Shown here one piece after another: positions 12,031-18,332 of a stretch of 64,000 bases of DNA (its first letter is position 1; the number at the start of each line of letters is the position of its first letter). The position numbers and the translations under genes were made by a program. The notes beneath the pieces are model-generated. The model worked only from the letters and a program-made list of their open reading frames with translations. It searched no databases and was not told the DNA's origin. The DNA comes from Planctomycetaceae bacterium (lineage in GTDB: Bacteria > Planctomycetota > Planctomycetia > Planctomycetales > Planctomycetaceae): assembly GCA_021732785.1 (NCBI GenBank), contig JAKFUG010000028.1, forward strand, positions 1 through 64,000, written 5' to 3'.

Positions 12031-12201
12031 GAGAGCGCGTTCATAACTCGTTCCCATGCTCCGCGTGGGAACGCACGGTCGCGACGCTCTGCGTCGCCTG
12101 GCGACTCGAAGACGACGCAGAGCGTCGAAGAAAGCGGTTCCCACGCGGAGCATGGGAACCAGAAGAGCAACGGAACATGCTCCCTCGCGGTCGCGGCTCG
12201 G
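12014..12201. repeat. Large nested inverted repeat between convergent genes
   Basis: Three arm pairs nest within 188 bp. The outer arms 12014-12042 and about 12172-12201 match imperfectly (CCGAGCC...GACCG...GAGC...GTTC). The middle arms 12050-12072 and 12137-12159 are perfect 23-bp inverted copies starting GTTCCCATGCTCCGCG. The inner arms share GACGCTCTGCGTCG and its complement near 12083 and 12113. It covers the tsaB stop and ends eight bases before the end of the convergent propeller gene. Confidence 0.8.
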
Positions 12202-12208
12202 ACGGAGA

Positions 12209-13288
12209 TCAACCAAACCGGACGGCGTAAATTGGCGGCAAATGGTAAGGCAGCGCGGTCCACTCATCGCCGCCGTTGGATGTGGTCCACAGGTTGCCCG
12301 TCGTGGAGCCGAACGCCAGATTGTCGCCGGTTTCGTCGATATCGAGCGCGTGGCGGAAGACGAGATCGTAACAGTACTTTTGCGGCAAGCCGTTCGTCAG
12401 CACCTCGCACGATTGACCGCCGTCGCGAGTGCGGGTGACCGAGAGCTTGCCGTCGACCGGCACACGCGTTTCGTCTTTGACGGCGGGGACAAACCACGCG
12501 GTGTCGCTCTTCGTGGGATGAACAACCACGCCGAAGCCGAACGACGACGGCTTCAACCCGGTCACGTGCGACCAACTGCGGGCGTTGTCCGTCGTGCGGA
12601 AGACGCCGTTGTGATGTTGCACCCACAGGACATCGGGATTCGACGGGCAGCGGACCATGCGGTGCGGGTCCTGAATGTTCTCGTCGAATTGTTTCTCCGG
12701 CGGCATGTACTCGGCGAAGATGCCCTTCGCTGCCAACGCCCACGTTTGTCCGGCGTCTTCGGTCCGCCAGACGCCGCCGCAGGAAACGGCCATCAGCACA
12801 TGCTGGTGATTCCGCGGATCAACGCAGATCGAATGAATCCCTGGCTTGTCCGCCCCGCCGCCGAACCAGCCCTTGCGCTCTTCGCGATTCCACAAGGTGG
12901 TGTTGAGCGTCCATGTTGCCCCGGCATCCGGAGAATAGAACAGGCCGCCCGGAATGGTCCCCGTCCATAATGTTTCGGGGCGATTCGGATCGGCGACTTC
13001 GAGCGCCCAGATTTGCATCAGGCTGTCGCCGGTGCCATCTTCGGCTTTGGGATACGCCGGGACGGCGACTTCGGTCCATGTCGCGCCGTCGTCATCGGAG
13101 CGATGCAATTTCACGCCAAAGTGACCGTGATTGAGGGCGGCATACACGCGATTCTGTGCCGGTTGCGGCAAGACCATCGAGGTCGGTGCGGCCAGAAACG
13201 AGACGCGTTCAACGTCCCATTTCCCGTTCCGCAACCGCAGATCGAACACCCCCTTGCGTGTCGCCACCCACAACCGATCCGACATCAC
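12209..13288 (-). CDS. BNR-repeat (sialidase-like) beta-propeller protein
   Basis: The 359-residue product starts at a GTG at 13288 (the adjacent ATG at 13285 is equally possible), after GGGGGA. It has at least four Asp-box (S/T-x-D-x-G-x-T-W) motifs: RSDDDGATWTEV, YSPDAGATWTL, RTEDAGQTWAL and RTTDNARSWSHV, plus TTSNGGDEWTAL at the end. These repeats fold as a six- or seven-bladed propeller, as in sialidases and photosystem assembly factors. There is no signal peptide, so it is probably cytoplasmic, and the catalytic Arg/Tyr set of sialidases is not evident. Its start overlaps the stop of an upstream MoaD/ThiS-like gene by one base, indicating translational coupling and a shared job. Confidence 0.85.
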   Translation of the reverse strand: MMSDRLWVATRKGVFDLRLRNGKWDVERVSFLAAPTSMVLPQPAQNRVYAALNHGHFGVKLHRSDDDGATWTEVAVPAYPKAEDGTGDSLMQIWALEVADPNRPETLWTGTIPGGLFYSPDAGATWTLNTTLWNREERKGWFGGGADKPGIHSICVDPRNHQHVLMAVSCGGVWRTEDAGQTWALAAKGIFAEYMPPEKQFDENIQDPHRMVRCPSNPDVLWVQHHNGVFRTTDNARSWSHVTGLKPSSFGFGVVVHPTKSDTAWFVPAVKDETRVPVDGKLSVTRTRDGGQSCEVLTNGLPQKYCYDLVFRHALDIDETGDNLAFGSTTGNLWTTSNGGDEWTALPYHLPPIYAVRFG

Positions 13289-13560
13289 TATCCCCCGGAA
13301 AGGGCCTGGAAAACGTAGATTTCGTCGTTGTCTGCCACCACATCGGTCAATCGAAGGCGATCGTGAATCGCCGATCCGTTGATGAAGATCGTCACATGTT
13401 GCCGCAGCCGGTCCTGGTCATCCAGAACGTAGCCCCGCAGCCGCGGCTCGTCGGTGAATGCCGCGGCAAGCACCGCCGCCAGCGTCGTACCGGAGTAACT
13501 CCGGCGCGACGTGTCAAACAGATGCTGTCGCAGATGCGGCGTCCAGTCGATGGTGGCCAT
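13288..13560 (-). CDS. MoaD/ThiS-like ubiquitin-fold protein ending in Gly-Gly
   Basis: The 90-residue product has the small beta-grasp pattern of sulfur carriers: LAAVLAAAF near residue 30, LRGYVLDDQDRLRQHVTIFINGSAI in the middle, the conserved turn DVVADNDEIYVFQALSGG, and a terminal Gly-Gly. In MoaD and ThiS the terminal glycine is adenylated and thiocarboxylated by an E1-like enzyme to donate sulfur. Here no moaE, thiG, thiF or moeB lies nearby. The gene is coupled directly to the BNR propeller gene (TAGTG overlap). The role could be sulfur transfer to an unknown product or conjugation to a protein. The fold call is strong; the pathway is not known to me. Confidence 0.85.
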   Translation of the reverse strand: MATIDWTPHLRQHLFDTSRRSYSGTTLAAVLAAAFTDEPRLRGYVLDDQDRLRQHVTIFINGSAIHDRLRLTDVVADNDEIYVFQALSGG

Positions 13561-16541: not shown

Positions 16542-18332
16542 TTAGACGCCAGCCCACGCAGGCTGGGGCGCTTCGAATGTCACCGTCTTGCCATGTTGCG
16601 GATGGGCGAATGTGAGTTGCCAGGCGTGCAGGCACATCGGCGTCTCCCCCATTTGCAGGGTTTGCACATCGCCGAGCTGGTGATCGCGCCGATACATGGC
16701 ATCGCCGACGATGGGCCACCCCAGATACCAGAGATGGACGCGGATCTGGTTCGTCCGTCCGGTTTTCGGCGTGACACACAGGAGCGTTGTGCCGTCGGTC
16801 AAGCGAGTGAGCACTTCAAACTCGGTGCAAGCCGCGACGCCGTTCATTTCATCGACAATACTCGCACCGCAGTGCCCCGTGCTTTGTGTCAGCGCGGCAT
16901 CGCATCGGAAATGATCATCGGGAGGCGTGCCGTGGACCCGCGCGAGATAGCGTTTGGAAACTTCGCCGCGCTCAAATTGCGGTTGCAACAGGCGAGCATA
17001 CGCCGCCGTGCGCGTGAAGACCGCGATCCCGGACGTGTTCGCATCCAGGCGATGGGCCGGTCGCGGTTTCTGCGGTGCATACACCGTCTGCAGAATGGAT
17101 TGCAGCGTATTGCGGTTGTAGCGGCCGCTGGGGTGCATCGGCAGCGGGGCGGGCTTGTTGAGAACAATCAGCGCCGCATCTTCATAGAGCAGTTCGATCG
17201 CGGCGTTCACAGCGGGTTCACTCTGCATCCGCTCAACCGTGAAATACGATTCCCCCGGCTGGACGACATGCGATGCCGCAACCGCACGATGATCACGATC
17301 GACCACTTCCCCGCTCTCGCAGCGCTGCTGCCAGGCGTCGCGCGCAATGAACGGCAGCACGTCACAGAGAAAATCCAGCAGCATCCATCCCGCATGTCGC
17401 GCTGCAATTTTCAATGGACGGAAATTGTCCCGCGGTTCACTGCCGGGCAACGGCGTCGTGACTTCCTTGAGCTGGCAACGATGGGCTTCCAGACTGCGGG
17501 ACTGTTGTTCCTCCGGTGATCGATAGCACCGCGGACACGATACGCCTTCAACGGTCAACGGGTCAGTCATTTCTTCCGGCGTGAGCACGCTTTGACACGC
17601 GAAGCAAAAGCCGTGGCGGGATTCATCCAGATCGGCGGCCAGGCCGACGCGCTTATCGAAGACAAAGCACTCGCCCTCGTAATGGTCGCCGCCGCACTCT
17701 TCGAAGTACTTCAGGATGCCGCCGTCGAGTTGATAGACCTGCTCGAAACCTTTTTGAATCAGGTAGGGTGCCGCCTTTTCACAACGGATGCCGCCAGTGC
17801 AGAAGGTGACGATGGGGGTTTGGTACGCGTCCGGAGAAAGCTGATCGGCAGCGGCGGGAAAATCACGAAACTGCTGGATGTGAATCGGCACCGCATCGCG
17901 AAACGTGCCGAGATTCACTTCAAAATCATTCCGCGTATCCAGCAGCGTGACGGGGCGTCCTTCATCCAGCCAGCGCTTCAATTCCTGCGGGCTCAACCGG
18001 GGTGCCGGGCGGTGGATGGGATCCACGTCATCAACACCGAACGCGATGATTTCCTTCTTGATTTTCACCAGCATGCGCGTGAAGGGTTGCTCGCGGCTTT
18101 CGCTGAACTTGGCCGGCAGTTTTTCGAGCCCGGGAACCGCCCGTACCATTGCCAGCAGTTGATCAATTTCTGCTGACCCACCGGCGACGAAAAGATTGAT
18201 TCCTTCCGTGCTCAGCAGAATCGTCCCTTTCAGCCCCCATTCCCGGCACACCGAAATCAGGCGGTCGCGTAACGGCTGGAGATTTTCGAGTGACGCAAAT
18301 TGATAGGCGGATATATTGACGACCGCAGGCAA
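16542..18332 (-). CDS. Fusion of TrhO-type tRNA U34 hydroxylase and RluA-type pseudouridine synthase
   Basis: The 596-residue protein has two enzymes in one chain. Residues 1-275 match TrhO/YceA: an acylphosphatase-like N-terminus (LSTEGINLFVAG), a rhodanese domain with the active cysteine in CTGGIRC (178-184), and a cysteine zinc-type cluster (C243, C246, C266, C269). Residues 375-596 are an RluA-family synthase with HRLDANTSG at 428-436 (catalytic Asp430) and PKTGRTNQIRVHL. The middle part may act as an RNA-binding linker. TrhO adds a hydroxyl to U34 of some tRNAs; RluA-type enzymes isomerise uridine in rRNA or tRNA. There is no frameshift or internal start that would separate them, so I read this as a true fusion. 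Confidence 0.9.
   Translation of the reverse strand: MPAVVNISAYQFASLENLQPLRDRLISVCREWGLKGTILLSTEGINLFVAGGSAEIDQLLAMVRAVPGLEKLPAKFSESREQPFTRMLVKIKKEIIAFGVDDVDPIHRPAPRLSPQELKRWLDEGRPVTLLDTRNDFEVNLGTFRDAVPIHIQQFRDFPAAADQLSPDAYQTPIVTFCTGGIRCEKAAPYLIQKGFEQVYQLDGGILKYFEECGGDHYEGECFVFDKRVGLAADLDESRHGFCFACQSVLTPEEMTDPLTVEGVSCPRCYRSPEEQQSRSLEAHRCQLKEVTTPLPGSEPRDNFRPLKIAARHAGWMLLDFLCDVLPFIARDAWQQRCESGEVVDRDHRAVAASHVVQPGESYFTVERMQSEPAVNAAIELLYEDAALIVLNKPAPLPMHPSGRYNRNTLQSILQTVYAPQKPRPAHRLDANTSGIAVFTRTAAYARLLQPQFERGEVSKRYLARVHGTPPDDHFRCDAALTQSTGHCGASIVDEMNGVAACTEFEVLTRLTDGTTLLCVTPKTGRTNQIRVHLWYLGWPIVGDAMYRRDHQLGDVQTLQMGETPMCLHAWQLTFAHPQHGKTVTFEAPQPAWAGV

Follow-up and report, generated by a model that had tools for sequence, protein, structure and literature searches.

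A MoaD/ThiS-like protein with a conserved Gly-Gly end and an Asp-box propeller are encoded as a pair across at least seven bacterial phyla

A 90-residue MoaD/ThiS-like protein (the carrier) and an Asp-box propeller, encoded by neighbouring genes in the window (the whole 64,000-nucleotide stretch of Planctomycetaceae DNA that was analysed), very probably form a unit, and their genomic pairing is near-obligatory. Each half belongs to a known, automatically annotated family; what is new, as far as searched, is a propeller-type partner for a ubiquitin-like carrier. No paper describing the pair was found in the open-access literature, and it is not mentioned, at the terms searched, in the surveys PMC1779556, PMC1949818 and PMC2948915, the last of which covers archaeal ubiquitin-like genes and uses neither 'sialidase' nor 'glycosyl' anywhere in its text.

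Pairing of the two genes across bacterial genomes

The pairing is seen in loci that were fetched by similarity to the propeller alone, from a set holding one bacterial genome per species. Among the best 80 of 571 relatives, a carrier gene is located at most 200 nt upstream of the propeller gene in 79 and 767 nt upstream in the last, and these loci are distributed over Planctomycetota, Acidobacteriota, Pseudomonadota, Myxococcota, Gemmatimonadota and Latescibacterota. Actinomycetota, represented by Arthrobacter and Nonomuraea with the carrier downstream of the propeller, are the seventh phylum. The carrier-propeller order of the window is also seen on annotated plasmids from Pseudomonas aeruginosa and Mitsuaria, and propeller relatives in Cupriavidus and Ralstonia likewise have a carrier upstream. 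A sample of 392 Planctomycetota genomes contains 111 propeller places scoring ∼350 bits or more, and the carrier is adjacent in 106 of them (104 upstream, 2 downstream) and elsewhere in the genome in the remaining five; three further genomes, which may be truncated or fragmented assemblies, have a strong carrier and no strong propeller match. More distant propellers, for example those of Rhodobacter and Fuscovulum, are found without a carrier.

Phyla are intermixed on the propeller tree, which suggests transfer of the pair between lineages. The 'downstream' order requires at least four changes on this tree, on well-supported branches, and the linkage therefore outlives changes in gene order; together with the counts of 79/80 and 106/111, these repeated changes rule out chance adjacency. 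Distances between carriers correlate with those between the corresponding propellers (r = 0.745 for 141 pairs, the largest value from 500 permutations being 0.162). The suggestion of the first-pass annotation that the two could act as a unit is strongly supported by linkage in at least seven phyla, its retention when the order flips and the correlated divergence.

No third gene is consistently linked to the pair: apart from the two genes of the pair, clustering of the neighbours returned only antisense shadow ORFs and families of sporadic occurrence, and none of the clusters provided a consistently linked metabolic gene that would name an acceptor. Two arrangements depart from the simple pair. 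At loci L195 and L202 the carrier is followed by two tandem propeller genes, and in the L041 6233–7746 region (G010) a propeller relative shares its reading frame with a serine/threonine kinase-like domain, and the carrier follows immediately downstream.

The carrier and the propeller in the window

The carrier gene occupies 13288–13560 on the minus strand, with an ATG start and a TAG stop at 13288–13290. Its product ends in QALSGG (13291–13308, the two glycines at 13291–13296), the predicted activated end, and matches Pfam ThiS (PF02597) over residues 15–90 with a score of 35.3 bits (cut-off 22.5; E = 1.7e-8), in agreement with the first description of it as a beta-grasp protein with a Gly-Gly end. 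A PF02597 score above the gathering cut-off combined with a C-terminal GG places it in the ThiS family; none of the more specific models claims it. The best curated NCBIfam model is SAMP1 (NF041918), with 47.2 bits under an equivalog cut-off of 60, and the scores for the MoaD family (TIGR01687, 18.6 against 49.5 bits), ThiS (TIGR01683, 14.5 against 37.45 bits) and the Urm1-like model are also under their cut-offs. The pair has neither a moaE gene close by, as would be expected for the MoaD of molybdopterin synthase, nor a thiG gene in its neighbourhood, as for the ThiS of thiamine synthesis, and the linkage to cysM and a JAB/Mec protease that marks the CysO type is lacking, with no recurrent third gene in the compared neighbourhoods.

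The tail is much more conserved than the body of the carrier. Its sequence is exactly QALSGG in 129 of 144 distinct pairs, the variants being QSLSGG, QALTGG, QALAGG, QAVSGG and similar, and the six tail residues are 98–100% conserved among 141 aligned members compared with a mean of 57% over the first 84 positions. GG is present in all 141, so that the loss of this end among homologues, which the first-pass annotation had named as evidence against its reading, is not what we observe. Residues follow the GG in five of the 144 carriers (ST in L100, a long extension in L114, ASDHQDE in L119, N in L223 and V in L227) and would have to be cut off for the GG to act as the active end, and one actinobacterial (Nonomuraea) carrier located downstream of its propeller ends before any GG.

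The propeller gene (12209–13285, minus strand) encodes 358 residues from the ATG at 13285, or 359 from a GTG at 13288. A one-base overlap of the two genes had been described; it holds only for the GTG start, whereas the ATG, at which similarity to the family begins (MSDR...), lies 2 nt past the carrier stop. The overlap is in any case not a family trait, since the spacing ranges from −71 to +273 nt across 144 homologous pairs. All five Asp-box motifs noted previously were located, namely SDDDGATW (13076–13099, residue 63 of the ATG form), SPDAGATW (12911–12934, residue 118), TEDAGQTW (12740–12763, residue 175), TTDNARSW (12572–12595, residue 231) and TRDGGQSC (12407–12430, residue 286), along with a sixth, degenerate one (TSNGGDEW, residue 335). 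No signal peptide is seen on reading the sequence, as had been stated before, and judged by its sequence the propeller is cytosolic.

The window propeller shows full-length homology to 3b7f (phmmer E = 2.7e-51), and the predicted fold of a propeller homologue superposes on 345 residues of 3b7f with a Z of 48 and an rmsd of 1.7. This homology and the seven-bladed Asp-box fold place it in the same family as 3b7f, which is Reut_B4987 of Ralstonia eutropha, a seven-bladed Asp-box propeller whose function was given as 'not known' (PMC2716378); no BNR/MoaD paper linking 3b7f to a ubiquitin-like partner was found. Among the structural matches listed for the homologue's model, 3b7f comes first and is followed by GH74 enzymes, Ycf48 and sortilin. 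RefSeq names the carrier 'MoaD/ThiS family protein' and the propeller 'exo-alpha-sialidase'. On the sequence evidence the latter label is misleading, no sialidase-type Pfam model being above its cut-off on the propeller (BNR_2 13.7 against 31.4 bits, BNR 13 against 27). The sortilin model PF15902 does exceed its cut-off (44.1 against 33 bits), but over partial stretches of a 358-residue cytosolic protein; the ten-bladed propeller with a 10CC module and the receptor topology of the sortilin/Vps10 family are lacking, and it is 3b7f, with seven blades, that heads the fold matches. Membership of the Ycf48 (PSII_BNR) family was likewise rejected (PF14870, 11.6 bits against a cut-off of 27), as was a role in defence, PADLOC giving no match for either protein.

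Regarding the surroundings of the pair, the earlier statement that moaE, thiG, E1-like and rhodanese genes are missing nearby is correct for the first three. A fusion of UPF0176_N, a rhodanese (TrhO-like) and an RNA pseudouridine synthase is, however, encoded at 16545–18332 on the same strand, ∼3 kb upstream; it does not recur beside the pair in the neighbourhoods compared. Just past the propeller gene, a palindromic repeat, CCCATGCTCYGCGTGGGAACG, forms an inverted pair at 12053–12072 and 12137–12156. It has 37 exact copies in the genome (reversed control, 0), and on the minus strand the right copy (12137–12156) additionally resembles a terminator.

Proposed role of the pair and alternative explanations

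Eleven propeller residues (K11, H55, K59, H151, H208, Q223, H225, D271, R274, R311 and H312) are about 99% conserved among 141 members whose median pairwise identity is 56%. From this we infer that the His/Lys/Arg/Asp set is an active or binding site. It had been suggested that the propeller is a target or scaffold of the carrier, which is possible; because this set is nearly invariant, the role of an active partner appears at least as likely.

Modelling of the complex, as the first-pass annotation had proposed, gave a divided answer. Several loci have both genes in frame, and reading the stop codon as a residue yields a carrier-linker-propeller chain, for which 44 paired rows were available. 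The AlphaFold2 model of this chain has a mean pLDDT of 89.8 and a pTM of 0.86 and is poor only in the linker and the last tail residues; since a pTM of ∼0.77 was estimated for an unplaced carrier domain, the carrier is probably placed on the propeller, although fused chains can be packed artificially in models. The swapped-order chain with a free GG end, modelled with few unpaired rows and a shallower alignment, reached a pTM of 0.78 and its tail was not confidently placed. The two models together hint at direct carrier-propeller contact. Ycf48 and sortilin, both structural matches of the propeller, have been solved with peptide ligands, thereby providing a precedent for a tail-binding role of an Asp-box propeller.

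A strong ThiF/MoeB (PF00899) match with E below 1e-55 was found in 27 of the 28 genomes searched, the exception being the window's own genome. These 27 have an E1 with or without the pair, and its presence is therefore permissive rather than specific. A canonical MoeB/ThiF was not found in the window's genome even though MoaD, MoaE and MoaA-like genes exist there; a search with the MoeB of a congener returned nothing better than the sole E1-like gene, which is divergent and has a weak JAB-like gene and a recombinase-like ORF next to it (L025 4178–8412, G000 C20). The place syntenic to the congener's MoeB holds other genes on a continuous contig, and loss, relocation or an assembly gap elsewhere are all possible. 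Three other ThiS-family proteins are encoded in this genome. One is a separate MoaD (G000:C2) located, by reading, beside MoaE-like and MoaA-like genes; another, ending in GG, is encoded at L003 1459–1749 (G000 C25), by reading between a molybdenum hydroxylase-like large subunit, which it follows directly, and a VOC-like protein. For the small protein of the pair, a role in carriage or conjugation, as would be predicted from its tail, fits the conserved GG end and the presence of an E1 in nearly all genomes searched.

The best reading of the pair, for which we consider the case to fall a little short of even, is a dedicated unit of a ubiquitin-like sulfur carrier and a partner propeller that works with an E1 encoded elsewhere. 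In this scheme, for which we infer activation, physical contact, where the polar residues lie, the transfer of sulfur and its acceptor, a general MoeB/ThiF-type E1 would adenylate the carrier at its C-terminal glycine, and the adenylated end would be converted to a thiocarboxylate by a sulfur donor. The carrier would then dock on the propeller, with the QALSGG tail entering a central cavity expected to be lined by the conserved His/Lys/Arg/Asp residues, and sulfur, or less likely the whole carrier, would be handed to a substrate bound by the propeller, which would thus play the part of MoaE for MoaD, ThiG for ThiS and CysM for CysO. More tentatively still, the propeller may represent a novel type of enzyme, seven-bladed and present in seven bacterial phyla (Pseudomonas and Burkholderia among their members), that accepts the thiocarboxylate of a ubiquitin-like protein, receiving the QALSGG tail in its cavity and passing sulfur to a small molecule or macromolecule. 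Against the sulfur-carrier reading stand the poorly placed tail of the swapped-order model, the lack of a consistently linked metabolic gene, the lack of a canonical MoeB/ThiF in the window's genome, the five of 144 carriers with residues after the GG and the one actinobacterial carrier without it.

Some of these observations are also accommodated by a protein modifier of the SAMP1, Urm1 or TtuB type, in which GG would be joined by isopeptide bonds to lysines and the propeller would be the main target, a substrate adaptor or the removing enzyme. SAMP1 is the best curated model by score (47.2 bits, under the cut-off of 60), two lysines of the propeller, K11 and K59, show a conservation of at least 99%, the pair lacks a linked third enzyme, as in SAMP/Urm1 systems needing only an E1, and the carriers that extend past the GG would need trimming like modifier precursors. 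We regard this as unlikely, however, as no JAB-type protease is linked, the sole JAB-like gene of the window's genome being a weak match beside the divergent E1, and the conserved histidines are not explained by a mere target role. Comparably unlikely is that the two proteins bind each other stably but not covalently and serve in structure, regulation or as a chaperone; in such a complex the tail would be kept because it is bound in the propeller and not activated. The peptide-bound structures of sortilin and Ycf48, the lack of a canonical E1 in the window's genome and a conservation of QALSGG that exceeds what an E1 alone needs in other ThiS-family proteins would favour this reading; the absolute conservation of GG in 141 aligned members and the E1 in 27 of 28 genomes would not, and known prokaryotic members of the carrier's fold family are mostly E1-activated.

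That the propeller is a carbohydrate-active enzyme, a sialidase or other glycoside hydrolase with the carrier as regulator or bystander, is suggested by its RefSeq name and by the GH74 enzymes among its structural matches, but is improbable: no sialidase-type model is above cut-off, the obligate pairing with a GG carrier is left unexplained, and most known sialidases and GH74 enzymes work extracellularly, whereas the propeller has no signal peptide. The least probable explanation by far, and one already largely refuted, is that the adjacency is an inherited neighbourhood of no functional meaning. Only two genes are involved, and co-transfer can hold neighbours together for a time, but the adjacency is kept at 54–60% protein identity, in six phyla and in otherwise unrelated surroundings, and survives swaps of gene order.

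Relation to known systems

The propeller resembles those of Ycf48 and sortilin Vps10 in being an Asp-box propeller with peptide ligands in solved structures; the cellular place differs and sortilin has ten blades. We know of no ubiquitin-like protein linked to Ycf48 or sortilin. On the carrier side, SAMP1 (small archaeal modifier protein 1) is the best NCBIfam match, yet below the equivalog level, and the best PDB sequence match, a weak one (E = 0.0059), is CysO (3dwg). In the CysO-CysM-Mec system of Mycobacterium tuberculosis, too, a stand-alone carrier of the ThiS fold ends in GG and has a dedicated partner, but there the partner is a cysteine synthase and here it is a propeller, with no cysM or JAB protease gene consistently linked. 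Molybdopterin synthase (MoaD-MoaE) is also similar in having a carrier, a dedicated acceptor protein and an E1 encoded elsewhere; it differs in that the MoaE-like and MoaA-like genes of the window's genome have a separate MoaD next to them, and the carrier of the pair is below the TIGR01687 cut-off.

To our knowledge, each prokaryotic ubiquitin-like carrier with an identified partner has opened a pathway, be it molybdopterin, thiamine, cysteine, tRNA thiolation or protein tagging. For the carrier described here, genomics has supplied the partner, a widespread protein that has a relative of solved structure and wrongly bears the name of a sialidase in public annotation, and the occurrence of the pair in at least seven phyla points to an undescribed two-protein unit of sulfur transfer or protein tagging.
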